A stretch of DNA of 64,000 bases, from the IMG/VR virus record IMGVR_UViG_3300002835_000169, positions 1-64,000 of that record. One strand, given 5' to 3'. Below the pieces are notes generated by a model, which worked only from the letters and a program-made list of their open reading frames with translations, ran no database searches and had not been told where the DNA came from. This document shows positions 4,770 through 64,000 of this stretch, piece after piece. The translations under genes were made by a program, and so were the position numbers. The DNA is from a virus. The stretch's first letter is position 1; each line of letters opens with the position of its first letter.

Positions 4770-6137
4770 ATGGCTTACGCAATCAAACGCAAAGGGCGAT
4801 TTACCGCCTATTACCGCCAAGACGGAAAAGTCAAATCCGTAGGCACTTACTCATCTAGGGCTAAAGCACTTAACGCTGGATTACTTGCCGAAGAAGGCGA
4901 GTTTAATCTAATGCCCGAAAACCAAAAGACATTCAACACTTACTTAGAGCAATTAGCACTTTCACCCGACATCAGAGTAATCACCCGTAAGAACTACATC
5001 ACCCTGCTAAAGAAGTATGCCCAACCTTCTTTAGGTTCTAAGCGCATCTCCGCAATTACCAAGAAAGACATTAAGGCATTGTTGGATAACCTCGCAAGCA
5101 AAGGGGTTAGCCCAAGCACACTCTCACACCTAAAGACTTCTTTAGGTTCTTTATTCAGGCTCGCCGTTGATGATGACGCAATAGCCACAAACCCAACCCA
5201 CCGCATAAGACTAAGCACGCCCAAGCCTGACCCCACCTACACCCTAGAGCCTAAAGACTTTCAGGCTATCTTAAAGAACTTACCCACAGACGGAAGCGTT
5301 CTTTTAGCCCAGTTTCTCATAGCCTCTGGCTGCCGTTATGGGGAAGCCACAGAACTCAGAGTCAAAGACTTTAACTTCCAATCCAAAGAAGTCTATGTCA
5401 GGCGCACAGTTTCAGATGTTGGCTACGCATACCAGCCCGCAGGGACAAAGTCCGAGGGGACAAGATTTCTTGTTGTTCCAGCAACAAAAAACGGCAACAA
5501 ACGAACTGTTGTTCTGAGCTCAGCTCTAGTAGCAGAGATAAAGAAGTTTGTAAAGGCAAAAGCCTTAGCAAAAGAAGACCTGCTCTTCTCAAAGCACCTG
5601 GTTGAGAAGAGGAGTAAAATAGAAAGCCCTACCACAAGCGTAGTAGGGAAGCCTTACACCATTGGAAGCAGGACATTCCAACACGCAACAGCGTATTCGT
5701 ACAATGTGGGCGGTTGTAGGTGTCAGGTATGTAAGGAAGCGGTCAGGGAGTACCGCAATCACTATAGAAAGGACAAGGGAAAGGGCAAGGTAGAAAGCCT
5801 TAGCAAAAGCGAAAGCCATAGCAAAAGCCATAGCAAAAGCGAAAGCCTTAGCAAAAGCCATAGCAAAAGCCTTAGCAAAAGCGACGGACACCTACCTCGT
5901 GACAAGTGGCGAGCCATTTGGAACGAAGCCATCAACAAGTCAGGGATTGGTTGGTATCCAACCACTCACGACCTACGGCACGCTAACGCTACCCAGTTGT
6001 TAAAGAACGGGGTAGATGTGCACGAGGTCAAAGAGCGGTTAGGTCACCAGTCAATCGTAACTACGGAGAGATACCTGCATCGTATCCGCCACCAGCAGTC
6101 AAACGCAGCCGAGGTTGTGAATGACTATTTGGAGTGA
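4770..6137 (+). CDS. int: Tyrosine integrase with Cys motif and Ser-Lys-Ser repeat insertion
   Basis: 455 residues. Order: N-terminal arm-binding domain (about 1-50), SAM-like core-binding domain (about 55-150), catalytic domain. Catalytic residues seen are Arg189 (GCRYGEATEL), His400 and Arg403 (HDLRH), His426 (LGHQS) and nucleophile Tyr435 (TTERYLH). Between the first Arg and the HxxR box is an insertion with GCRCQVC (315-321), recalling integrases of actinobacterial phages, followed by a 30-residue repeat of Ser-Lys-Ser units (342-371). It catalyses site-specific insertion or excision, so the phage is likely temperate. No attP core was recognised nearby. The stop overlaps the next gene. 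Confidence 0.93.
   Translation: MAYAIKRKGRFTAYYRQDGKVKSVGTYSSRAKALNAGLLAEEGEFNLMPENQKTFNTYLEQLALSPDIRVITRKNYITLLKKYAQPSLGSKRISAITKKDIKALLDNLASKGVSPSTLSHLKTSLGSLFRLAVDDDAIATNPTHRIRLSTPKPDPTYTLEPKDFQAILKNLPTDGSVLLAQFLIASGCRYGEATELRVKDFNFQSKEVYVRRTVSDVGYAYQPAGTKSEGTRFLVVPATKNGNKRTVVLSSALVAEIKKFVKAKALAKEDLLFSKHLVEKRSKIESPTTSVVGKPYTIGSRTFQHATAYSYNVGGCRCQVCKEAVREYRNHYRKDKGKGKVESLSKSESHSKSHSKSESLSKSHSKSLSKSDGHLPRDKWRAIWNEAINKSGIGWYPTTHDLRHANATQLLKNGVDVHEVKERLGHQSIVTTERYLHRIRHQQSNAAEVVNDYLE
5793..5882 (+). repeat. Short tandem repeat inside the integrase (AGCAAAAGC units)
   Basis: About ten imperfect copies of a 6-12 base unit around AGCAAAAGC with CATT/CCTTA/GAA variants, encoding alternating Ser-Lys-Ser with His, Leu or Glu. 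In frame, so the protein stays intact. Copies of the same unit recur at 6676-6709 outside any gene. Confidence 0.85.
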
Positions 6138-18647: not shown

Positions 18648-19235
18648 CTAAAACCGCGCTTGGTCTCGGTATTTAGGGTCTGACATTTGCTCAGCTACTG
18701 CCTTTTCAACTTCGTTAATTGAAAATTTTCCTACAAGGCGTGCTAAAGCGTAGGAATCGGCAGCATTGTCATCGTTGAACTCAACGCCCCATCGCTTGTA
18801 TATCTGTAACAGCATCTCTTGCTTCTTGGCGTTCCCTTTACCTGATGCATACTTCTTCAATGTCATTGGGGGAACTTTAAGGGGGAATCTACGTGGGTCA
18901 TCTTCACCGTACATATCGTAGATAGCTAACCGTACCGTTGCTGAAAGTTCTCCAAGAACTAACGCTGCTTGGCTTGCAAGAACTGTCCCTTCCATTGCTA
19001 AATCTACAACATCTAAATCATGTTCTTCTAGGTACATTAAATGGTCTGTTAACCATTGACGAATATCTACAAGACGTTCAATTCCAAAGTAAGGAGATTT
19101 GTACACCCAAGTGATGTGTTTCTTCGGGTCATCTAATGAGAGCGCAGTTAGCGCAAATCCTGTAAGGGATTGGTCAATGCCGATTGTTACATTACCTGCA
19201 GTGTTTAATCCGCCGTCTATTACCTTAGTTGTCAT
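18648..19235 (-). CDS. RuvC-like Holliday junction resolvase
   Basis: 195 residues. RNase H-like fold with the expected acids: Asp in NVTIGIDQSLTGFAL (about 20), Glu in VDLAMEGTVLAS (about 87) and Asp in NDDNAADSYALARL (about 160). It would cut branched DNA before packaging. It overlaps the dNMP kinase gene by 11 bases. Phage versions of this fold are common next to nucleotide and recombination genes, as here. Confidence 0.85.
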   Translation of the reverse strand: MTTKVIDGGLNTAGNVTIGIDQSLTGFALTALSLDDPKKHITWVYKSPYFGIERLVDIRQWLTDHLMYLEEHDLDVVDLAMEGTVLASQAALVLGELSATVRLAIYDMYGEDDPRRFPLKVPPMTLKKYASGKGNAKKQEMLLQIYKRWGVEFNDDNAADSYALARLVGKFSINEVEKAVAEQMSDPKYRDQARF

Positions 19236-52787: not shown

Positions 52788-52988
52788 CTAAGCTTCTGGG
52801 GTCTCAAAAGGGTAATGAGTGCCAGGAACAACGCTCTCTGGTTCGTTTGTTACATCTATAGTCAATGGCTCACTTAACAAGATTGCAGCTAAGCGCTCAT
52901 CTGTGTGAAGGATGTCTTGAATAACTCCGTCAATAACAAAAGCAACTTTTTTTGGGGGAAGTGGACGGTTTGGGTCAAATGGTTCCAT
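52788..52988 (-). CDS. Hypothetical small protein
   Basis: 66 residues. PPKKVAFVIDGVIQDILHTDERLAAILLSEP suggests a small alpha-beta domain also found near phage neck genes. Start overlaps the previous stop. Function unknown. Confidence 0.6.
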   Translation of the reverse strand: MEPFDPNRPLPPKKVAFVIDGVIQDILHTDERLAAILLSEPLTIDVTNEPESVVPGTHYPFETPEA

Positions 52989-53248
52989 TACTTTGTTTCC
53001 TCTTCTGATTGGTCTTCTGTGTAGCTAATCTCTACAGCGGCCCACTTGTCTAGTGGACAAAATGCATTTGGAAGTTTTACTTTTGACTGCATAAAGCAGC
53101 CACATTCTTTACACTGACCTGTTAGTTTTATTAACTTAGGGCAAGCAGAACAGATTTCGTACCGTTCTTCTGCAACAGTTGTTTGAACTCTTCCAAGGTT
53201 TTTATTGAATAAATCCCAAGGACGTGCATTACGTGGTTTGTTGCTCAT
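52988..53248 (-). CDS. Small zinc protein with CxxC pairs
   Basis: 86 residues. YEICSACPKL, CKECGCFMQ and FCPLDKW give Cys spacing of a two-part zinc finger, similar to small phage proteins near T4-like late genes. Acidic end. Possibly a late transcription or assembly factor; not proven. Confidence 0.65.
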   Translation of the reverse strand: MSNKPRNARPWDLFNKNLGRVQTTVAEERYEICSACPKLIKLTGQCKECGCFMQSKVKLPNAFCPLDKWAAVEISYTEDQSEEETK

Positions 53249-53258
53249 TGTGCTCCTA

Positions 53259-56135
53259 TTATGATACCGAGAAGTTGTCTACCCCTGCTCCAAGGGCTAG
53301 TGTGCTAGTGCCTAAAAATACACCGTAATTTCCAACAGGAGTACCTGTACCTGTTGTGGTGTAAATCTGAGTACCGCTTGAGTTGTAAGCATATACTGTC
53401 CAAGAACCAGCCGCACTTACTACCGCTGTAATCTTTGTAGGGGTAGACCCAAGTAGCCCACCTGTTGTTCCACCAGTAATAATTCTGTCACCAGTAGCGG
53501 TAGCTGTTGGTGTAACTGGTTGTCCTCCTCCAAGAGTAGTTCTGTCGGAGGTATTTCCAAGGCAACCGCATGTTGGGTAAGAGTTTACAGCCGCACCAGT
53601 TGAATCGTAGGATGCCGAACCATAAGTACAGTTTGGGTATGTTCCGTTGTTTGTGCTAGAGGTTGCAGTCGCTTGACCTTGATATGTAGCACTAATTGCA
53701 GTAGTTCCGTAATTACAGTTTGGGTATGTGCCAGAGGCTGGGGTTACCTTAGAGCTTACAGTTGCGTTTGTGTAGGAATAAACAGGCATTGTGCCTTCGG
53801 CGTAGCAAGAAGCGTAGGACCCAGAACCAGTTGTTGGGTTTGGTCCATTCACAGTACCGCTACCGCACAAGTAGCATGTGCTGGAAGTTGGCGTAAGCTG
53901 ATAGCCACCTTGTAAACAATCTCTTAAACAAATAGAGCCGCTTCCTTCAGGAAGGCATTCTCCAATGTAAAAACATGGGTTGGAATAGCTTTGAACATCT
54001 ATTGATGTACAGCTTCGTGCAGATGGAGTTGCGCTGTAAGTAGTAGCACCGCCAACGTATGAGTAAATACCATTACCAGTAGTTCCAGCATAAACCTGAC
54101 ACTGAGTATTGTTGTAGAGAGTTCCACTACTACAGCTGTAACAGCTTCCGTTGTACTCTGTAGTTCCAGAAGGACAAACGGCTGAACCTTGAGCACAACT
54201 AAGGCAATTAGGAAAGGAAAAAGTTCCAGAACTACAGGTGTAACACTGCCCGTTAAATTGGTTTTGACCACCTGGGCAAGAATAAAATGTCGTTCCAGTA
54301 CAATAATAGTTTCTATAACTACAGTCAGTACAGTAGTTGTTACCTGTTGAATACGTGTAGGTGTACTGTTGGTAATACGAACTATAGTAAGACCCGCTAC
54401 CCGTTACCCACCACGCAACTCCGTAACCGTTACTTACATCGGCTGTTACCGTTGCAGTTCCATTACCAAACGATACAGAGGCAACACCAGACGAAGATGA
54501 AACGCCACGACTTCCGTTGGTAGACCAGGAACCAGAGTGAGAGGTCCAAGGACTACCAGAAGAGGTTGTTCCTAAAGTAGAACCAGAACGGTTAAAGTTG
54601 TCTGTAATAGAAGGCAGTGGAAGAACACTGTTTGAGGTTATTCCTCCTCCTACACCAGCTCCGTTTCTTGCTTTTAGAGTAAATGTGTATGACTGAGTTG
54701 CCGCAAATGTTCCTGAAACGCTTACAACGCCACCTGCAGCGCTAGGTGTTCCAGAGTAAGTCAAAGCAATCGCAGGGCTAGAGACAATATCTCCAGTACT
54801 TGTCCCACTTCCTTGCCACGCAGTAAGTGCGGACCCGTTTTGTACAATGGCTCCGTACGTTAGGTTTACAGATGTAGTGGTTGCAACAGCAGCGCTTAAA
54901 CTTGCTGGAGTACCAGGAGTTGCTGGTGCAAACGGCGTAATAGATTGAGAGGAAGCAGTTGCAGTGCCCATAGGGTTAGTAACGCTAAAGGACACAGTGT
55001 ATTGAGTTCCCTGCACATAACTAGCTGTGTAAGTTAAAGCGCCTGACGTGTTTCCTACAGGACTTGTCCCTGCGGTAGTTGGTGAGATTCCAGAGACTTC
55101 TGAAACATATGAAGTAACAGCTTGTCCACCAGTGCTATAGGAGTACGTTCCAGTAATGTTGGTGTTGCCAGTACTAGACAGGGTAAATGTAGGAGTGCTT
55201 GGGATAGTTGCAGCAACCCGTGAGTTACTTGATGCAGATGCTGGAGAATCTCCATTTGCATTTACTGCTTTAAGGATTACAGAGTAAGAAGTTCCCGCTA
55301 CAAATGCTGGAGTTCCAGAGGTGCTTTGCGTAGTTAAAGTCATTGGGCTTGTATTGCTTGGCGCTGTTATGTAAGTAGTTCCACCATCTGTTGAGTACTT
55401 GTACGAGGTTATTGCTGAGCCACCTGTGCTTGTTGGTGCTGTAAAGGTCAAAGTAAACTGTGGGTTAGAACCAAAAGCAATACCAGTAACATTTGAAAGA
55501 GTTCCGATAGTAGGAGCAGATTCAGGAATAGAAGACGGAGTAATGAAGGTACTTGCAGAAGAAGCTAAGCTTGTTCCATTATCGTTAGTTGCGGTAACTG
55601 TGTAGTTTCTAGAGATACCCACAGTTTCAGATATAGTAATTGGAGAAGTTGCTCCAGAAACAACTGTAGTGCTAGAAGAGGTTGCTGTAAAAGTTGTGAT
55701 TGATTTTCCACCAGTTGCGCCAGCGGTAAAGACAACCCCAATGTTTGCAGAACCAGTGTATGGCTGACCACTAGCAAGAGTGGGAGTTCCGATAGTTGGA
55801 GCCTGTGGAACGGTAGTTGCAGTAATACTATCTGATGCAGCAGAGGCAAGACCTGTTCCTACAAAGTTTGTTGCTGTTGCTGTAAAAGTATAAGCGGTAT
55901 TAGATTGCAACCCAGTTACAGTTAAAGGAGAAGAGGTACCAGAGGCTGTGAATCCTCCAGGGCTAGAGGTTACTGTGTAAGAGGTTGCTTCAAAGCCAAT
56001 TGGACTTGGGGTAAAGGTAACTACTGCTGCGCCATTATTGAACGCTCTATCTGTTCCTACATCTGTAGCTGTGCCAATTGTTGGAGCGTTAGGTACTTGC
56101 CTACGGCTAGAAGCCGTTACTCCAACAATTGACAT
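53259..56135 (-). CDS. Large Fn3-repeat, cysteine-rich adhesin-like virion protein
   Basis: 958 residues. About 1-510: five or so fibronectin-III-like repeats of about 95 residues (pattern AFTATATNFVGTGLASA, TYTVTATNDNGTSLAS). About 510-570: a lectin-like start (ITDNFNRSGSTLGTT..WTSHSGSW). About 598-860: a region with about two dozen Cys (CTDCSYRNYYC, CYTCSSGTF, CYSCSSGTL, CYLCGSG) rich in Tyr, Gly, Ser, much like EGF/furin-type disulfide modules, rarely seen in phage. A final beta domain. Likely a surface adhesin or receptor-binding fibre downstream of a modification cassette. Confidence 0.75.
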   Translation of the reverse strand: MSIVGVTASSRRQVPNAPTIGTATDVGTDRAFNNGAAVVTFTPSPIGFEATSYTVTSSPGGFTASGTSSPLTVTGLQSNTAYTFTATATNFVGTGLASAASDSITATTVPQAPTIGTPTLASGQPYTGSANIGVVFTAGATGGKSITTFTATSSSTTVVSGATSPITISETVGISRNYTVTATNDNGTSLASSASTFITPSSIPESAPTIGTLSNVTGIAFGSNPQFTLTFTAPTSTGGSAITSYKYSTDGGTTYITAPSNTSPMTLTTQSTSGTPAFVAGTSYSVILKAVNANGDSPASASSNSRVAATIPSTPTFTLSSTGNTNITGTYSYSTGGQAVTSYVSEVSGISPTTAGTSPVGNTSGALTYTASYVQGTQYTVSFSVTNPMGTATASSQSITPFAPATPGTPASLSAAVATTTSVNLTYGAIVQNGSALTAWQGSGTSTGDIVSSPAIALTYSGTPSAAGGVVSVSGTFAATQSYTFTLKARNGAGVGGGITSNSVLPLPSITDNFNRSGSTLGTTSSGSPWTSHSGSWSTNGSRGVSSSSGVASVSFGNGTATVTADVSNGYGVAWWVTGSGSYYSSYYQQYTYTYSTGNNYCTDCSYRNYYCTGTTFYSCPGGQNQFNGQCYTCSSGTFSFPNCLSCAQGSAVCPSGTTEYNGSCYSCSSGTLYNNTQCQVYAGTTGNGIYSYVGGATTYSATPSARSCTSIDVQSYSNPCFYIGECLPEGSGSICLRDCLQGGYQLTPTSSTCYLCGSGTVNGPNPTTGSGSYASCYAEGTMPVYSYTNATVSSKVTPASGTYPNCNYGTTAISATYQGQATATSSTNNGTYPNCTYGSASYDSTGAAVNSYPTCGCLGNTSDRTTLGGGQPVTPTATATGDRIITGGTTGGLLGSTPTKITAVVSAAGSWTVYAYNSSGTQIYTTTGTGTPVGNYGVFLGTSTLALGAGVDNFSVS

Positions 56136-56213: not shown

Positions 56214-56864
56214 TTAGCGGGGCAAGTCACGGATTAATTGCTTGTAGGCTATATGCTTCCCGTAATAGTTTACCTCAAAAGTATCGTCAAAAGCTGACTT
56301 AAACCCCTCTGAATGAAGGGCACCGTAAAAGTCTTTACAGGCAGTATCACTTATGGAAGCTTGTACACAAAAACGCGTTAAGGGGCAAGCCCACTTGTTT
56401 AACTTATCAGTTAAATAGTATTCATCTTTCATACTTTTTATAATTATTTCAAGATTTTTTGAGTTTTTTCCAACAACATAATTACAATTATTATAGTCAA
56501 GCGGGGGCATACCTGATTGGCTAGTTGCTAAAAGGTCATGCTCACACTGCAAGGTTTCAAGCATGTAGTCTAGAGGAACTGTACATACCGAATCCATATC
56601 TGCATACGCCCCACCATATTTATAGGTTACTAGGTATCTCCATATATCACCTTGAGTTATAGGAGCTAATTTTTCATAGTGAGTATAGAGCACGGGGTCT
56701 TCTGTCTTTACGAATTCTGCCCTATCCACATGATTAACGTACCTATACTCCCAGGTTGGATTTAAATTTATCCAAGTCTGGGTTACTTGCTTTAAATGTT
56801 CTGGCAAATCTTCATATAGGTAGTTATGTGTTTGCCAAATTATCTTAGGAACATCTTTAGGCAT
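56214..56864 (-). CDS. Glycosyltransferase, GT32-like
   Basis: 216 residues. MPKDVPKIIWQTHNYLYEDLP, then WRYLVTYKYGGAYADMDSVC with the DxD, is the GT32 (OCH1/capsular, DXD-type) pattern. It transfers a sugar from a nucleotide sugar to a protein or glycan. In this position it stands next to the adhesin and the oxygenases. The stop precedes a 78-base gap before the adhesin. Target unknown. Confidence 0.85.
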   Translation of the reverse strand: MPKDVPKIIWQTHNYLYEDLPEHLKQVTQTWINLNPTWEYRYVNHVDRAEFVKTEDPVLYTHYEKLAPITQGDIWRYLVTYKYGGAYADMDSVCTVPLDYMLETLQCEHDLLATSQSGMPPLDYNNCNYVVGKNSKNLEIIIKSMKDEYYLTDKLNKWACPLTRFCVQASISDTACKDFYGALHSEGFKSAFDDTFEVNYYGKHIAYKQLIRDLPR

Positions 56865-56870
56865 ACAAGG

Positions 56871-57536
56871 CTAGTACTTACTACTGTTAATATGGCAAAT
56901 TTCAATCTCATTTATATTAACGTGACTTGGTAGCGACCCTACCCAGTAAATAGCTTCTGCTAAATCCTCTGCAGTTAAGGCTTGGTCTCGTTTTTGCTCT
57001 TGGGTATCAATAGTTGCTGGACAAATTTCTGTAATTTTAATGCCAAATTGTGGGAACTCAAGTCTCATTGTGTCAATTAAACCGCGTTCACCCCTCTTGG
57101 CATTTGTGTAATTTCCTCCACCGCGATACGGCACCTTACCTCCAAAAGAGGTGATAAATACAATTGTTGGGGAATCTGACTTTTCCATACACGGCACAAA
57201 TAATTGAGAAAGGTACATAGGCCCAGATACGTTTATATCGTAGGCTCGTCTAAAGTTATCCATAGTCTCATTAATAATGTTAGTTGGGCTAGAACCACCA
57301 CCAGCATTATTAACTAGAAGGTCTAAAGTAATATCCTTATACTTTTCAAAGAAGCCCTCTATTGCTTTAGAGTCTGTTACATCTAGGCTGTATACTTCAA
57401 CGTTGTCAGATACAAGCTCAGATACTTTAGACAGGTTTCTTGAAACAGCAATAACCTTGTACCCATTTTCAGATAGACGCTTGACTGTTGCTAGGCCTAC
57501 GCCCTTACTTGCTCCAGTAACAATTGCTGTTTTCAA
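56871..57536 (-). CDS. Short-chain dehydrogenase/reductase
   Basis: 221 residues from TTG 57536 directly after the previous TAA. TGASKGVGLATVKRL (cofactor-binding), NNAGGGSS, a Ser in FITSFGG, and YTNAKRGE (YxxxK) give the classical SDR set. NAD(P)-dependent oxidation or reduction of a small substrate, possibly a sugar or lipid. Unusual in phage tail neighbourhoods; part of the oxygenase cassette. Confidence 0.88.
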   Translation of the reverse strand: MKTAIVTGASKGVGLATVKRLSENGYKVIAVSRNLSKVSELVSDNVEVYSLDVTDSKAIEGFFEKYKDITLDLLVNNAGGGSSPTNIINETMDNFRRAYDINVSGPMYLSQLFVPCMEKSDSPTIVFITSFGGKVPYRGGGNYTNAKRGERGLIDTMRLEFPQFGIKITEICPATIDTQEQKRDQALTAEDLAEAIYWVGSLPSHVNINEIEICHINSSKY

Positions 57537-58292
57537 TTACATACCCTGGTTCTTATTAAGCTCCATATTGTTATGAATCCAGTGACCAGGAATCATGTAT
57601 TTAAAACCAGACTTTACAACGTGTGCGGTATGAAAGTATGGGGGAAAGGCTGGGAATATGACAACGCTATTTTCTTTTGGCTTTAGTCCAAAATCAATTG
57701 CTTTATTTGCAACAGATACGTCGTAGTCCAAGTCTACGGCTGGAGCTGACCCCTTAGAAAAACCATCAGCGCTAGTCCATCCTCCATCATAATCTTTTAA
57801 CTGAAAAGAGATTTCGCCGCCTTCACAGTCGTCGTTTAAGTACATTACTAATGAATATCTTAAGGTCTTATCGCCATCTAGCTGGTCAAAATGTGCGCCC
57901 ATGCCCATTCCAGTATTGTACTTTTTTATATTAAACGTTGGAAAAAGTCTTGGCTCATCAAAGTCCCCTAAAGAAGAAGCATAGTCTTTGCAAACGTTAT
58001 ACATTGCAGTCATAACCGCGTCGTATATATACTTACTTTTTTCCGCTACTTTTCCGCTATCTGAATCGTAAATGACGCTAAGCCTATTAATTGCATTAAT
58101 ATCAAATGTTTTTGTTTCTCCATAAATAAAGTTTTTATCATTAGAAGCGGTCCAGGTGTCCCAAACGTTTACGCCTAAGTCTGTGTATTGCTCAAGAGTG
58201 TCTAACTCTTTCCAAACCTTTTTAAAGGTATCAAAGTCCTCAATAGCATCTGTATAGTAGTACGCTTTTGGGTCCAGTATTTCTCTGTTCAT
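57537..58292 (-). CDS. 2OG-Fe(II) oxygenase 1
   Basis: 251 residues. GAHFDQLDG gives HxD, and about 90 residues on FHTAHVVKSGFKYMIPG supplies the distal His with Lys instead of Arg for 2-oxoglutarate. MYLNDDCEGGEISF is the core strand of the prolyl-4-hydroxylase-like fold. It uses Fe(II), O2 and 2OG to hydroxylate an unknown target. First of the series in this cassette from the left. Confidence 0.85.
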   Translation of the reverse strand: MNREILDPKAYYYTDAIEDFDTFKKVWKELDTLEQYTDLGVNVWDTWTASNDKNFIYGETKTFDINAINRLSVIYDSDSGKVAEKSKYIYDAVMTAMYNVCKDYASSLGDFDEPRLFPTFNIKKYNTGMGMGAHFDQLDGDKTLRYSLVMYLNDDCEGGEISFQLKDYDGGWTSADGFSKGSAPAVDLDYDVSVANKAIDFGLKPKENSVVIFPAFPPYFHTAHVVKSGFKYMIPGHWIHNNMELNKNQGM

Positions 58293-58303
58293 CTGTTTCT
58301 CCC

Positions 58304-58972
58304 TTAGTACTTATTTTTTGCGTAATGGTCTTTTTCTTTAATGAACCCAACAAGAACATATCGTATTGGTCCATCTCCTACATGCTTGACTCCGTGCTCA
58401 TACTCTTCGTTTCCTGGAAAAAATAACATAGTTCCTGGCTTAGGTTTTAACTGGATATCAAGGTTTGGAAAAAATAACTCACCATCTACGTAGTCGTCAT
58501 TGATGTATACGATGGTGGCATACTTTATAGATGGGTCTGTTTTTTGGTCAGTGTGCGCTTTTAACTCTACCCCTGCTTGCATTCGTTGAATTGTTGCAAA
58601 TCCACTTAAAATTAATTCTGGGTCAGCTTTGACCACCATAGAGTTTACAACATCGTATAAAGGCCTTTGGATTTCATGATGTAGTATGTTAAAGTTTTTA
58701 TCTTTCCAATTTTGGGTAATCTCAAACTTACCTTCAGCAACCAGATTATCTACATCATCTCTACCAAATTTTTCCAAACAAAAATACTTTAAGTTTGCGT
58801 GGTACTCTACTTCCCAGTCTTCTTGTGACGTACTGTGGATAATCTCCCAAAAAGTGTTTATTTGGTCTTGGGATAAAAAGTTCTCAACAGAGAATAGCTC
58901 TGGGGTAATATCTGTAACTACGTATCCGCTGTCTATCAACTGTTGTTTAAAAGACTCAATCATTTGCAACAT
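58304..58972 (-). CDS. 2OG-Fe(II) oxygenase 2
   Basis: 222 residues from ATG 58972 (ATG 58963 possible). HTDQKTD, VYINDDYVDGELFFP and HGVKHVGDGPIRYVLVG give HxD...H...R, the complete facial triad plus the 2OG-binding Arg. Similar in layout to the prolyl hydroxylase-like oxygenases of cyanophages. Overlaps oxygenase 3 by 17 bases. Confidence 0.87.
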   Translation of the reverse strand: MLQMIESFKQQLIDSGYVVTDITPELFSVENFLSQDQINTFWEIIHSTSQEDWEVEYHANLKYFCLEKFGRDDVDNLVAEGKFEITQNWKDKNFNILHHEIQRPLYDVVNSMVVKADPELILSGFATIQRMQAGVELKAHTDQKTDPSIKYATIVYINDDYVDGELFFPNLDIQLKPKPGTMLFFPGNEEYEHGVKHVGDGPIRYVLVGFIKEKDHYAKNKY

Positions 58973-59711
58973 CTTCTAGTTTGTACTTATTTCCTGCTGC
59001 GTCTAACTTCCAGCCTTGCTTAAGAAGCTCTTGCCACTCTGCTCGTTCAATCTCTTGTTGCGCTCTAGTAGCCTTCATCTCTTCAGCCCATGCATCTCGC
59101 ACCTCTTGTGGGTACGCTGACTCTTCTCGGTCATCCCAGAAAGAACCAATGGTGTATCTGACACCACCTGTAATAAGAGATACTTCGTGCATATTGTTAA
59201 ACCCGCCGTCAAATACAGCAAGCAGCCCAACTTCTGGTTTAATCTCTAAGTTTTGTGCTGGGAACCGTAAAAGCCCACCTTCAAAATCATCGTTTAAGTA
59301 TAGAAACCCTGCGTAGCGGCTTCTTGTAAACGCACCTGAGTTTCCCTCAGCATCTGTGTTGTCAGAGTGAATTCTTGCATATGCTCCTGGCTCCCACTTC
59401 TGTGTGTGGTACCCAATTTTACAGATTGTTTTTGGGTCAAGGTCGTGGACTGAAGCAATTGCTTCAGGCATTGCCTTTTCAATATCTGAAAATATAGTTG
59501 GAGATAGACCAGCGTCAATAACCTCTTGGTCGTTGTCTTGTGGCAAAACTGAGGAATAGGACTCGTAAAATGAAATTGGCATCCAAGAAATTGCCCCATT
59601 CTCTGCCTGAGCATCTAGGGCTTGAATCATCTTTTTGCAATCTTCTTTGCTTATGAAGTTCTCATAAACAACGATGTCTTTTGTTAGTCGTTTTTTGTTT
59701 GCTAGGTTCAT
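58956..59711 (-). CDS. 2OG-Fe(II) oxygenase 3
   Basis: 251 residues. IHSDNTDAEGNSGA, FLYLNDDFEGGLLRFP and MHEVSLITGGVRYTIG carry HxD...H...R. The N-terminal KDIVVYENFISKEDCKKMI is the family start. A C-terminal helical extension of about 50 residues (EEMKATRAQQEIERAEWQELL) is unlike the others. AACGGAGTAAAAG precedes the ATG. Confidence 0.87.
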   Translation of the reverse strand: MNLANKKRLTKDIVVYENFISKEDCKKMIQALDAQAENGAISWMPISFYESYSSVLPQDNDQEVIDAGLSPTIFSDIEKAMPEAIASVHDLDPKTICKIGYHTQKWEPGAYARIHSDNTDAEGNSGAFTRSRYAGFLYLNDDFEGGLLRFPAQNLEIKPEVGLLAVFDGGFNNMHEVSLITGGVRYTIGSFWDDREESAYPQEVRDAWAEEMKATRAQQEIERAEWQELLKQGWKLDAAGNKYKLEDVAND

Positions 59712-59727
59712 TGTACTTTTACTCCGT

Positions 59728-60501
59728 TTAGTTATTTAATAGGGATTTATCTCCAGCAATTAACTTTTCTATCTCTTGTTGAACAAGGGCATACTCTTCT
59801 TCAAATACTTCTGGGGTTCTGCCTTCTCCCATACCCGCAGGGTTTCCCGCAGCTATTAGGGCTTCTTTTAGTGTCTTTTCAATATCGTAATTTAGTACTG
59901 TGCATTGAAACCAGTTAGCTACATACCCATCTCTATCAATAAGGTACTTCTCAAAGTTACCGCCCTGCATTGCGCCGTTGCCAAAAGGTTGATTTAACCA
60001 AGGTGACAAATAGCCATCTCTGTCTGGAATGCCAAGTTCTCTTTGTTTTTCAGCAAACGCAAGCATTTGCTCAGCTATTTCTTTGTATAGCTCATGAGTT
60101 TCTTTTCTTGGTTGACCTAGTCCGTTTACAGAGTTATCGCCCTTGTAAGGGCTAAGCTCAGTAGCACTCTCATTTGGGTTTGACGACACCATCTCTGAGA
60201 ACTTAAACGTGGTTCCGTAGACTTCTTGACCATACTCTTGTGAATCTAAGCCACAGGTAATGCCTTCAGACCACTTGCCCTTAGTTACTCCTGGGCCACA
60301 ATAGTCATTAGTAGGAATTGCAATAACTTGGAAATCATCTCCACCGTACTTATCTTGAAGCCATTGGAGAACTTCCATTTGATTAGCGTTGCCGCAGCCG
60401 ACGGTTGTATTCGTCAACAAGGTTACTTTGCCTTTAAATTGACTTAAGAAGTCAGGAGAGCCCTCAGCTGAGTTAAGAGGGATGTCGTAAATTGATTTCA
60501 T
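59728..60501 (-). CDS. Glutathione-peroxidase-like protein
   Basis: 257 residues. SIYDIPLNS, then NTTVGCGNANQMEVLQWL (peroxidatic Cys at the GPx position), IPTNDYCGPG (replacing FPCNQFG) and NFEKYLIDRDGYVANWF follow the GPx scaffold. It also has a C-terminal helical extension of about 50 residues. It would reduce peroxides, for example those made by Fe(II) oxygenases, or act as a thiol-redox partner. Rare in phage genomes. Confidence 0.8.
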   Translation of the reverse strand: MKSIYDIPLNSAEGSPDFLSQFKGKVTLLTNTTVGCGNANQMEVLQWLQDKYGGDDFQVIAIPTNDYCGPGVTKGKWSEGITCGLDSQEYGQEVYGTTFKFSEMVSSNPNESATELSPYKGDNSVNGLGQPRKETHELYKEIAEQMLAFAEKQRELGIPDRDGYLSPWLNQPFGNGAMQGGNFEKYLIDRDGYVANWFQCTVLNYDIEKTLKEALIAAGNPAGMGEGRTPEVFEEEYALVQQEIEKLIAGDKSLLNN

Positions 60502-60522
60502 AGGGTTGATTGTACCTCGTCG

Positions 60523-61209
60523 TTATGGTTGTCTAGGTCCTGTATGCTTTGTTATTTCCCAAAAGAAAGGGCATGTAAAACGTAAGCCGCTTTTTACCTC
60601 AGTAACCCCATGGATGTAGTTTTTGTCACCTGGGAAGAAGTAAGCAGCGCCTTTTTTAGGCTTAAACTGCACACCCTGTAGTGGGAAATACAGCTCTCCG
60701 CCCTCATAGTCATCATTTAAATAAAACAAACTTGATAGGTCATAGTTTGGAAAGTCGTTAGGTGTTCCAGCGTCGGGGCCCTCGTGGAGCTCTTTATCAG
60801 CGTGTGGTTTTTGAAACTGCCCAGGAAGCCATTTAACAATAGTTGTCCCAGTTGGTATAACTTCTACCTGGTAGAACTCTTCAATAATTGGTCGTAGTCT
60901 TTGAAATAGCCCAGCAATTACTGGAGATATCTTTGGGTCATTTTTATCTAAAGTTGGCTGAGTTGCGACTCGGTCTTTCCAATAATCTGAGTCGTAGGTA
61001 ACGGTCCCATTCTCATTTGTATGGCTTTCCGTAACATCCCAAATTGTTAAAGACTTAGCAGCTTTTTCTAAGAACTCTATCTCTTCTTGGGTCATGAAGT
61101 TTTCTAGCTCAACAATCATGTCTTTGCTATCCCCAAACCAGCCTGATGGAGTTATAGATGGGGTTCTTTTTACTACGGTATACGAATCTTTGTTTTGTTC
61201 CATGCTCAT
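60523..61209 (-). CDS. 2OG-Fe(II) oxygenase 4
   Basis: 228 residues. PHADKELHEGPDAG (HxD), FYLNDDYEGGELYFP and IHGVTEVKSGLRFTCPF (His, Arg) give a full set. N-terminal MIVELENFMTQEEIEFLEKA is the usual start. Start overlaps the stop of the next upstream gene (ATGA). Confidence 0.87.
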   Translation of the reverse strand: MSMEQNKDSYTVVKRTPSITPSGWFGDSKDMIVELENFMTQEEIEFLEKAAKSLTIWDVTESHTNENGTVTYDSDYWKDRVATQPTLDKNDPKISPVIAGLFQRLRPIIEEFYQVEVIPTGTTIVKWLPGQFQKPHADKELHEGPDAGTPNDFPNYDLSSLFYLNDDYEGGELYFPLQGVQFKPKKGAAYFFPGDKNYIHGVTEVKSGLRFTCPFFWEITKHTGPRQP

Positions 61210-61922
61210 AGTGTATCCCTTTTCGTTTTATCTATTACCCCTAATTTTAGGGTCTTTACTTCATGAGAGCCTAGGCTTTCTTCTCTTTCGTTTACAGCGT
61301 CTCTGTACCAATCTGTCCATTTTCCAGAAGAGTTTACTTTTTGTGCAGCCTCTCCGTAAGAAATGTTTGCATTTAATCGTTTGCTACCTGGGTCTTGGTA
61401 CTCAACAACCTCAATGTTTGTTCCATTTAACTTTGACAAAGATATTGGGATAATTGTGGCAACTGGGGTTCCAGCCTTAATAACTACCCTTTTATTTGCA
61501 ATCTTTGCCTTGATAGCTAAAGGCAAAGGGTTGTCGTAAAAAGATGTGCTGATTAGGGACGACATAGTTTCAAACTCATCACTAAAATAATTTACTGGGT
61601 TAATAGTAAAGATACTGACATCTTCATCTGTCCTAAAAACCAGTCCCGTGTTTAAGCTTATAGAGGATTGACCTCTACCAGAGTAAGCCCCTTCTGGACT
61701 AAACACTTGGACACGGTCTGGTGTTTGGTCGTTTATTCCATCCCAAATAAACTCAATGTCCTGTAAGCACGATAAACTCCAGCCAATTACATTTGACTGG
61801 GTTACTGGAAAACACCTGTAAGCGTGATTCTCTGACGTTGCATCCATCCAGTCTCTTTTAATGGGCATAGGTTGGACATCAAAGAGAGCCCCGTGTGTTT
61901 TTTCAACTGAGATGTTGAACAT
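61206..61922 (-). CDS. DUF6065-like protein A
   Basis: 238 residues. HAYRCFPVTQSNVIGWSLSC and FIWDG with later FRTDEDVSIFTINPVNYF and AGTPVATIIPI recall the DUF6065-type beta proteins that occur next to 2OG oxygenases in phages and marine bacteria. Its neighbour at 62588 has the same plan, so they are likely paralogs. Possibly the substrate-binding or cupin-like partner of the oxygenases. Confidence 0.6.
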   Translation of the reverse strand: MFNISVEKTHGALFDVQPMPIKRDWMDATSENHAYRCFPVTQSNVIGWSLSCLQDIEFIWDGINDQTPDRVQVFSPEGAYSGRGQSSISLNTGLVFRTDEDVSIFTINPVNYFSDEFETMSSLISTSFYDNPLPLAIKAKIANKRVVIKAGTPVATIIPISLSKLNGTNIEVVEYQDPGSKRLNANISYGEAAQKVNSSGKWTDWYRDAVNEREESLGSHEVKTLKLGVIDKTKRDTL

Positions 61923-62578
61923 TAATCTGATTCTGCGCTATACATCTCTGGAGTATGAAACTTTTTGCTGTAGTCAAGCATTGTCACAATAGAGTATTTG
62001 ACGCCAGAAGTCACTGGCATTGCTTGATGTGGGTACATAAAATTTGATGGAAAAATAAACAGGTCCCCAGCATCTGCTTTAACCTTTAAGTTCTGTAACC
62101 TAAAGTAAAGCTCGCCACCTTCGTAATCATCGTTTGGATACCCAACTAAAGAAACTGTACAGTTGTAAGAAAATCCATGGTCATGGTGCTCCATAAAGTG
62201 TTGTCCTGGACCATACTTAATGAAGTTGAATGCTTCCCAATACTTTAAATTGTTAATGTTGTACATTCTGCAGTAGTCTTCAACCGCAGGTAACTTAACG
62301 TCATACAAATCTTGCCACAAAGCTTGAAGATTTAAGCTGACCTGACTCTTGTCATTTTCTATATCAGTCTTCTTAAATTTAAAGTCGTTGCAGTCTCTGT
62401 ACTCTGGCATAAGCTGCCTATACCCAACGTACGCTGGTTGCCAAGCATACCCAGTCATATCTCCTTCTGGCTTAAGGTTTGCTTCAATTCTACCTATAAC
62501 ATCAATGTCTTTATTGATGACGCCCTTATAGCAAAAGATGCCACTACCTAAATCAACTTTTTCTGTCCATGTTTGCAT
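61922..62578 (-). CDS. 2OG-Fe(II) oxygenase 5
   Basis: 218 residues. EHHDHGFSYNCTVSLVGY gives HxD, PNDDYEGGELYF is the central strand, and PHQAMPVTSGVKYSIVTML has distal His with Lys in place of Arg. It closely resembles oxygenase 6, so it is a second member of the Lys subtype. Overlaps DUF6065-like protein A by one base. Confidence 0.85.
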   Translation of the reverse strand: MQTWTEKVDLGSGIFCYKGVINKDIDVIGRIEANLKPEGDMTGYAWQPAYVGYRQLMPEYRDCNDFKFKKTDIENDKSQVSLNLQALWQDLYDVKLPAVEDYCRMYNINNLKYWEAFNFIKYGPGQHFMEHHDHGFSYNCTVSLVGYPNDDYEGGELYFRLQNLKVKADAGDLFIFPSNFMYPHQAMPVTSGVKYSIVTMLDYSKKFHTPEMYSAESD

Positions 62579-62587
62579 TGCATTCTC

Positions 62588-63355
62588 CTATTTGTAGTCT
62601 CGTTTTGACCAAACTTTGGTTTGGTATACGCCGCCATCAGGCTGACGGTAAAATTGCATGTTCTTTACTAATTTATCATACATTGTAGATTGGTCTGGAA
62701 TGTCTATTTTGTGTTCCCAGTTTTCTCGTTTAAACGGGAGAACCTGCATATACGGAGTTCCTTCTGGGATGGTACCTTCCCAACCTTCTGGAAGAAAGAA
62801 TGGAAAAGTTCCAAGTAAGTGAAGCTTGTCTGAGTCTACAACGCCAGTAGTGTTTAGGAACGGTAAGTCAAACCTATTCATTGGTGTCATAAACAGTGCG
62901 CTGTATCCCTCTGGAAGTTCTAGTCCCCAAGGAGAGCTCCAAGCAAAATGAGTTTGATAGTATCCTTTTGGATGCTCAAACTGTGGCATTGGGGGCCTTT
63001 GGGTACAGAAGTCTTGGTACTTAGGGTTATTGATTTTTACATCTATGATTCCTTGAGTATTTTTATAGAAAGTTAAATCGCACGGTGTTTTAAAGATGTA
63101 CCCAGTTGTAAAGGCGTCCATAATAGCTGGGCACGCTTTCCATGTAGGAATTTTTCCATAATCATCTGTTGTACCCTCTTTAGGAAATGGGCAAATTTCT
63201 TTTGGAGCTTTGTAATATTCTCCGTTTGGCATTTTTGCAAATCTGTCTGCATTTTTATACCAGGCAGGCATTTGCGTCTGTGTCGGTACTGGAACAGAGA
63301 TATGCTTTTTATCTATCCACGGCCTAAATGACCTAAATATGGCTACTAAAGCCAT
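62588..63355 (-). CDS. DUF6065-like protein B
   Basis: 255 residues. MPAWYKNADRF, ACPAIMDAFTTGYIFKTPCDL, FAWSSPWGLELPEGYSALF and PEGTPYMQVLPF match the order of segments in DUF6065-like protein A, though identity is low. It lies between two oxygenases of the Lys subtype and overlaps the sixth at 63355. No catalytic motif. Confidence 0.6.
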   Translation of the reverse strand: MALVAIFRSFRPWIDKKHISVPVPTQTQMPAWYKNADRFAKMPNGEYYKAPKEICPFPKEGTTDDYGKIPTWKACPAIMDAFTTGYIFKTPCDLTFYKNTQGIIDVKINNPKYQDFCTQRPPMPQFEHPKGYYQTHFAWSSPWGLELPEGYSALFMTPMNRFDLPFLNTTGVVDSDKLHLLGTFPFFLPEGWEGTIPEGTPYMQVLPFKRENWEHKIDIPDQSTMYDKLVKNMQFYRQPDGGVYQTKVWSKRDYK

Positions 63356-64000
63356 TACTTGTGCCCTAACTCGTTAATGTCTGTCATCACAACAACGCAA
63401 TATTTTGTACCTGAAACCATCGGCAGAGAAGCGTGCTCATAAATATAGTTTGATGGGAATACTGCAATGTCCCCTACTTTTGGCTTATAAACTAAGTTAT
63501 CAAGTCTTGGGAACTTAAGGTCTCCACCTTCATAATCATCATTAATATAAATAACCGCAGATACTGTGCAGTTGTATGCAGGACCGTGGTCTGCGTGAAT
63601 GTTGAAGTGAGTCCCTGCCCCCTCATACTTTACAAAGTTAAAAGCTTCGTAATATACGACGTTAATACCCCAATACCTAGCATAGTCGTCTATACAGTAC
63701 TTAAGCTTTTGGTATATCTCCTCATGCAAGTCTATAAGTTCAGCGTTTGACTCATCTCTTGGCCCAAGGTTCTCCTGCTTATACTTAAAATCTACACAGT
63801 CTCTTGCCCGCTTAACTGGGACAGCAGATTGTGTAACTTGCGCCTCTGACCACTTATATTTGTTGCCTGATGATAGATTGGACTCAAGAGTGTTAATGTA
63901 TCTTGCGGCATCTTCACGTGAGAAAGTGTTTTGGTAGAGGTGTAGTCCCAAACCTAAATTTTTAACACTTACTTTATCGTCTAGAGCTCTTTCAGGAACT
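63355..64000 (-). CDS. 2OG-Fe(II) oxygenase 6 (5-prime end probably beyond window)
   Basis: HADHGPAYNCTVSAVIYINDD (split here by length) gives HxD, and EHASLPMVSGTKYCVVVMTD gives the distal His and Lys. The frame stays open to the right edge: TTG 63951 is the first in-window start, but the upstream KVSVKNLGLGLHLYQ aligns with KVDLGSGIFCYKG in oxygenase 5, so the real start likely lies outside. At least 215 residues of open frame are present. Confidence 0.75.
   Translation of the reverse strand, partial: VPERALDDKVSVKNLGLGLHLYQNTFSREDAARYINTLESNLSSGNKYKWSEAQVTQSAVPVKRARDCVDFKYKQENLGPRDESNAELIDLHEEIYQKLKYCIDDYARYWGINVVYYEAFNFVKYEGAGTHFNIHADHGPAYNCTVSAVIYINDDYEGGDLKFPRLDNLVYKPKVGDIAVFPSNYIYEHASLPMVSGTKYCVVVMTDINELGHK

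Follow-up and report, generated by a model that had tools for sequence, protein, structure and literature searches.

A cluster of 2-oxoglutarate (2OG)-Fe(II) oxygenase genes was analyzed in IMG/VR virus record IMGVR_UViG_3300002835_000169, a linear record of 65,060 bases of which positions 1-64000 are here called the window. Six open reading frames (ORFs), all on the minus strand between 57537 and 64062, matched the oxygenase family PF13640 with E-values of 2e-7 to 4e-12, all of them above the curated cut-off (27 bits), and these six places were the matches in the whole record. An earlier note, made by reading the bare sequence, had placed these genes correctly except for the start of the sixth (ox6), which lies past the window end at contig position 64062. 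The record ends inside a tract of Phe and Pro (contig 64803-65060) encoded by a further gene, and the earlier note missed this tract protein, as it falls just beyond the window end.

Layout and conservation of the oxygenase cassette

The order of transcription is ox6, unk8, ox5, the DUF6065 gene, ox4, a glutathione peroxidase (GPx)-like gene, ox3, ox2, ox1, a short-chain dehydrogenase/reductase (SDR) gene, and a GT32 gene (Table 1). Neighboring genes either overlap or are separated by no more than 21 bp (intergenic distances of -17 to +21 bp), and the cassette is therefore probably a single transcription unit.

Alignment of the six oxygenases identified the HxD motif and the distal His in every one (6/6), together with the division that had been read from the sequence previously, namely Arg as the 2OG-anchoring residue in ox2, ox3, and ox4 and Lys in ox1, ox5, and ox6. 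The iron ligands were invariant within each orthologue set (25-56 unique sequences per gene), as was the Arg or Lys, except for a single gap in the ox1 alignment. Median dN/dS values of 0.03-0.08 for the cassette genes tested indicated purifying selection. The six had been described as too diverged for recent duplication, and this was true of most pairs; ox5 and ox6, on the other hand, are 40% identical over 205 amino acids. Given this identity and the common match of their downstream neighbors (61206 and 62588) to phrog_7084, this unit of two genes, oxygenase plus partner, was, on sequence comparison, duplicated in tandem long ago.

A scan with the DUF6065 protein returned 208 viral relatives, 80 of which were kept. 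Complete cassettes, defined as those running from ox6 to the SDR gene, numbered 41 among the kept relatives and the loci obtained from a separate scan for the tract (described below). These contained five (n = 1), six (15), seven (18), or eight (7) oxygenases in a near-constant gene order. The GPx slot was often occupied by a further Lys-type oxygenase, with GPx itself present in 11 of the 41 complete cassettes, and GPx-like genes recurred in distant tract cassettes (L114 and L333). The recurrent core was made up of the tract protein, the GPx-like protein, the ox4-type and ox5-type enzymes, and DUF6065, and no metabolic genes co-occurred within the conserved core. GT32 was rejected as a core pathway member because it was present in only 4 of 33 relatives and absent from 29. 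Linkage of the genes elsewhere and integrity of their active sites were the two points on which the earlier note had staked its proposal; the genes were linked in nearly all relatives and the active sites were intact.

Two proteins that had been noted as paired unknowns (unk8 and the DUF6065 protein) are indeed a pair of paralogues and were identified as having the dUTPase fold. All 50 PDB matches listed for the AlphaFold2 (AF2) model of the DUF6065 protein were dUTPases. Similarity to trimeric dUTPases extends in unk8 to the sequence GVVDSD at the motif-3 position, whereas the DUF6065 protein lacks the motif-3 catalytic Asp and, in phages, adjoins ox5-type oxygenases. In the alignment, every DUF6065-type phage row had Ser or Pro at this position, and Asp was confined to unk8-type rows. 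A general partnership of DUF6065 with 2OG genes in bacteria was rejected, given that no 2OG gene was found near DUF6065 in 18 Pseudomonadota loci (about 10-16 kb each). A set of 50,697 cultured phage records contained no DUF6065, and no literature on it was found. The dUTPase-fold pair is put forward, with low confidence, as a scaffold or adaptor for ox5 and ox6.

Table 1. Genes of the oxygenase cassette and its downstream neighbor, in order of transcription (window coordinates; pLDDT, predicted local distance difference test)
Feature	Position	Strand	Evidence
ox6, Lys-type (P4H-like) oxygenase	63355..64000 (on to contig 64062)	-	PF13640 E 1.6e-10; H156/D158/H210/K220 invariant in 53 unique orthologues
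unk8, ox6 partner, divergent dUTPase-like (beta-clip), motif-3 Asp kept (GVVDSD)	62588..63355	-	phrog_7084 E 2e-34; aligns with DUF6065
ox5, Lys-type (P4H-like) oxygenase, ox6 paralogue (40% identity)	61922..62578	-	PF13640 E 3.6e-12; AF2 pLDDT 93.7; top Foldseek matches prolyl hydroxylases; K194 invariant in 55 unique orthologues
DUF6065 protein, ox5 partner, dUTPase fold without motif-3 Asp	61206..61922	-	PF19541 E 8.9e-26; AF2 pLDDT 92.6
ox4, Arg-type (P3H-like) oxygenase, most conserved member	60523..61209	-	PF13640 E 1.2e-9; profile nearest prolyl 3-hydroxylase 1, E 7.6e-10; tree
GPx-like thioredoxin-fold protein	59728..60501	-	PF00255 E 1.9e-8; PDB GPx E 2.7e-10
ox3, Arg-type (P3H-like) oxygenase	58956..59711	-	PF13640 E 2.3e-7; profile nearest prolyl 3-hydroxylase 1, E 6.9e-9
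ox2, Arg-type oxygenase	58304..58972	-	PF13640 E 2.5e-10; sole solved relative prolyl 3-hydroxylase 1, E 8.9e-4
ox1, Lys-type oxygenase, inserted loop	57537..58292	-	PF13640 E 2.7e-8; no solved relative at E ≤ 0.01; residues conserved
SDR oxidoreductase, usual cassette end	56871..57536	-	PF00106 E 3.2e-40; syntenic
GT32-like glycosyltransferase, accessory (4/33 relatives)	56214..56864	-	PF04488 E 2.8e-13
FN3-containing Cys-rich protein, probable fiber/structural, downstream of cassette	53259..56135	-	PF00041 E 7.2e-7

The Phe/Pro-tract protein and its link to the oxygenases

The upstream flank in relatives carries the major capsid protein, repeat fiber-like proteins (one with Mtd_N), the tract protein, two small ORFs, and then ox6. 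The tract protein is built of FN3 domains, followed by a run of the form (FFP/FFPP)n and a C-terminal cap that usually holds 4-10 Cys. Across 67 distinct tracts of 30-140 residues, Phe runs had a length of two in 1186 of 1192 cases, and Pro runs a length of two (736) or one (388). A collagen-like Gly-X-Y repeat was not present, the tract consisting of Phe and Pro only. Tract codons are mixed synonymous codons, and the constraint on the tract therefore acts on the protein. An antisense or simple-repeat artifact was rejected for the viral loci, where the tract shares strand and frame with the FN3 domains, has mixed codons, and follows a strict FF/P(P) grammar.

Two observations concern the ends and neighbors of these proteins. 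In two FFPP-tract proteins (L117:3-785 and L161:2132-4324) the C-terminus was intein/Hint-like (PF14890, weak and sub-threshold in L117, with similar sequence in L161), and these proteins may be cleaved by a self-processing domain. Small four-Cys proteins (window 52988-53248 and contig 64081-64329) adjoined the tract and FN3 genes in 4/4 relatives inspected, and a weak DUF6171 match was obtained for the homologue in L017.

The tract protein was located just upstream of the cassette, on the same strand, in all 42 cassette loci with 1.9 kb or more of sequence upstream of ox6. An independent scan for FFPPFFPPFFP-coding DNA, which was blind to the cassette, found an oxygenase within 3 kb of 51 of 60 evaluable tract proteins. 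As a control, contigs were drawn by an arbitrary 14-mer, and an oxygenase was found at 0 of 72 random viral sites, with no match in 727 kb. Separated by tract scaffold, the link was present for 91/95 proteins of the FN3 type and 4/5 of another N-terminal (non-FN3) type, with few others.

Relatives were also anchored on the capsid gene, which gave 20 informative loci, each with 9 kb or more of downstream sequence. Eighteen of these had neither tract nor oxygenase, one had both, one had an oxygenase alone, and none had a tract alone. At the level of whole records, PF13640 was present in 18/18 with a tract, 17 of which had 4-11 copies, and 19 of the 22 records that lacked a tract had zero copies and three had one; Fisher P values for this co-occurrence ignore shared ancestry. 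A search of 84,980 prokaryote genomes for the tract pattern yielded 17 matches, most of them antisense-like or due to chance, and oxygenases adjoin the real-looking tracts in phage-like contigs of metagenome-assembled genomes with enough flank (L329, L333, and L341).

The main Lys and Arg clades were separate in the oxygenase tree, and both were present in 33 of the 45 tract loci that have oxygenases. Enzymes of the ox4 and ox5 types were also found in a second, distant tract-phage group, together with GPx-like and DUF6065 genes. The cassettes of this second group (L114:129-2121, L114:6805-7593, and L120:3164-3931) additionally contain a PF13759 oxygenase, a beta-hydroxylase of the Asp/Asn type (PF05118 E 3e-24), and a protein that is sulfotransferase-like by eye, with no Pfam match.

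Resemblance to prolyl hydroxylases

When the ox5 model was compared with the PDB using Foldseek, nearly all of the 50 matches listed were prolyl hydroxylases, and a prolyl 4-hydroxylase (P4H) fold was assigned on this basis to ox5 (Foldseek of the ox5 model only). The top match was the Pseudomonas putida P4H in complex with EF-Tu, and the others included an algal P4H with (Ser-Pro)5, the viral P4H of PBCV-1, PHD2, and human collagen P4H. By profile, the Lys type came closest, among solved structures, to the Bacillus anthracis P4H (4e-6), and the Arg types were nearest to prolyl 3-hydroxylase 1 (P3H1; E-values in Table 1), a likeness that spans the C-terminal core only. Neither these E-values nor the structural matches are proof of a substrate.

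Ten residues after the distal His (His+10), the alignment placed Lys in the B. anthracis P4H and Arg in P3H1, the Arg being aligned for the ox4 family. Lys occupies this position as K194 in ox5 and K220 in ox6, both invariant, and Arg occupies it in the Arg types, with a shift to +11 in ox2. Since P3H1 and P4H differ in the same residue, the two subtypes set out in the earlier note correspond, as judged by sequence, to two known prolyl-hydroxylase classes.

A candidate system for fiber hydroxylation

Taken from sequence comparison and structural models, the cassette is probably a prolyl-hydroxylation system for a virion fiber. Its neighbors are virion genes (capsid protein and Mtd_N fiber-like protein), which were counted in favor of this explanation. 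In the system that we infer, the oxygenases would be catalytically active, the tract would be their substrate, and the tract protein would be located in the virion. While the virion is being assembled, the ox4-type and ox5-type enzymes would add hydroxyl groups to tract prolines at two ring positions, in reactions that depend on Fe(II), O2, and 2OG. Lys-type enzymes (ox5, ox6, and probably ox1) would have a P4H-like action, and Arg-type enzymes (ox4, ox3, and ox2) a prolyl 3-hydroxylase-like action or one on a second proline position, with the remaining oxygenases extending or diversifying the hydroxylation. Collagen and plant cell-wall glycoproteins, with their hydroxyproline, offer an analogy: a very hydrophobic tract could in this way become a rod that is soluble, rigid, or taggable. 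The GPx-like protein may perform disulfide or peroxide chemistry, and the SDR, GT32, sulfotransferase-like, and FkbM-like genes may further decorate the hydroxyls in some lineages. The dedicated hydroxylation pathway with two subtypes that was suggested previously is supported in this narrower form, as P4H-like and P3H1-like enzymes, although GT32 and, in most complete cassettes, GPx do not belong to it.

Several points weigh against hydroxylation of the tract. No solved relative was found for ox1 by profile at the threshold given in Table 1, PiuC and LH3 also match the oxygenases, and prolyl-hydroxylase likeness does not fix a substrate within a superfamily that includes lysyl and free-amino-acid hydroxylases. 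Not every tract protein has an oxygenase close by; in three records where the first tract found stands without one (L094, L097, and L098), nine, six, and seven oxygenases respectively are located elsewhere in the record. The two main tract-phage groups have a common upstream fiber-like domain and are not phylogenetically independent, and for this reason the module may have arisen only a few times and the P values overstate the evidence, the contigs being fragments related by descent. Five to eight enzymes are not obviously needed for one substrate, and the dUTPase fold of DUF6065 is not explained by fiber hydroxylation.

This fold counts in favor of a rival reading in which the cassette hypermodifies DNA or nucleotides, with TET/JBP-like base oxidation by the oxygenases, binding or hydrolysis of nucleotides by the dUTPase-fold pair (of which unk8 keeps the motif-3 Asp), and decoration of the hydroxyl by GT32 and SDR. 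A dNMP kinase at 19225 would be in keeping with such a role, as would weak Tet_JBP matches, but these were sub-threshold (PF12851 scored 21.4 bits, with the cut-off at 34.9). Neither a DNA methyltransferase nor a nucleotide hydroxymethylase was found among the window proteins scanned (a subset of the ORFs), GT32 is missing from most relatives, and DUF6065 is without the catalytic Asp. The closest folds and profiles are moreover those of peptidyl-prolyl hydroxylases and the tract link is left unexplained, and we regard hypermodification as unlikely.

A different protein substrate, whether one of the nearby fiber or capsid proteins or a protein of the host (EF-Tu, for example), would require that the tract owes its linkage solely to common descent of one gene block. 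The EF-Tu complex as top fold match, the several fiber-like proteins nearby, and the upstream fiber domain common to distant relatives all point that way, but the link persists on a changed tract scaffold and capsid relatives without the tract are also without the cassette, which makes this improbable as well. Auxiliary metabolism, in which the oxygenases act on host metabolites or shift 2OG, nitrogen, or iron status, is the published view of phage 2OG genes and was proposed for cyanophages (PMC3037559, PMC9602691, PMC13184970). The weak PiuC match agrees with it, but the position inside a virion gene block, the strict co-occurrence with the tract, the prolyl-hydroxylase-like folds, and a conserved core devoid of metabolic genes render it unlikely here.

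The locus had initially been framed by comparison with cyanophages. The record carries WhiB, a B12-dependent ribonucleotide reductase, a contractile-tail sheath, PolA, and an integrase, and a cyanophage origin was rejected on the basis of WhiB and the absence of DUF6065 from cultured phages; WhiB, as a sequence pointer, points to an actinobacterial host. The integrase ORF (4770-6137) contains a Ser-Lys-His low-complexity insert at window 5589-5891 (SKSHSKSESLSKSHSKS...), which is odd for a recombinase. The view that six oxygenases are exceptional did not hold either: cyanophages commonly have 1-5 2OG genes and S-SCSM1 has 24, of uninvestigated function (PMC3037559, PMC9602691), so that many oxygenases in one phage were already known.

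Seven of the 24 S-SCSM1 genes lie in about 9 kb around tail-fiber genes, which resembles the present arrangement, and one fiber has a Pro/Arg-rich repeat tract, although an FFPP tract was not seen in that fiber. The gene concerned, ORF245 (L392:4081-5346), is a short tail-fiber gene with a long RQPRNFRQPR-type repeat, beside the seven 2OG genes, and its repeat may represent another type of substrate, here in a cultured phage. The best matches to ox5 in cultured phages were about 25-42% identical over part of the length, and in phage Sf-FS3 two 2OG genes follow a peptidase-S74 protein. The phage protein annotated "ferrochelatase" in KJ019148.1 (L393:5230-6318) matched no ferrochelatase family, its matches above cut-off being all to 2OG-oxygenase domains (PF13640 E 2e-17), and PHROGs named "ferrochelatase" or "DNA endonuclease" (phrog_3531, phrog_2297, and phrog_274) match cassette oxygenases; the reported co-occurrence of ferrochelatase and 2OG oxygenases in phages may partly be a labeling artifact.

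The P4H of PBCV-1 (PDB 5c5t), a single enzyme of an algal virus, is likewise virus-encoded and was the fourth-best fold match to ox5 (E 2e-10), whereas here a phage has 5-8 enzymes of two subtypes adjoining a dedicated Phe/Pro-tract gene. Animal collagen P3H1 and P4H offer an analogy in their two subtypes (Arg and Lys at H+10) and a low-complexity proline-rich protein, but differ in low identity, in FFP/FFPP without Gly-X-Y, in the lack here of a protein disulfide isomerase subunit, and in a regiochemistry that is here predicted from sequence. No paper on prolyl hydroxylation of phage fibers was found in the open-access literature, subscription papers being mostly outside the search. As far as shown by that literature, no earlier description exists of the FFPP tract, of the near-obligate linkage between tract and cassette, or of the pairing of P3H-like with P4H-like enzymes.

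The chances are about even that this amounts to a "collagen-like" chemistry in phages, in which an (FFP/FFPP)n fiber is densely hydroxylated by paired 3- and 4-hydroxylases and possibly glycosylated or sulfated, and which would constitute a hydroxyproline-rich kind of virion fiber not known in phages. Because the candidate substrate is a simple repeat, the question is open to synthetic FFPPFFPPFFPFFPP peptides and mass spectrometry. If true, the system would provide a new hydroxylated protein material and new prolyl hydroxylases for peptide chemistry. The occurrence in lake bacterial viruses of 5-8 enzymes resembling collagen-type prolyl hydroxylases, beside a gene for a fiber-like protein of Phe-Phe-Pro-Pro repeats, suggests that these viruses chemically harden or decorate their own fiber, and part of the phage 2OG gene class would then be virion maturation machinery rather than a means of reprogramming host metabolism.

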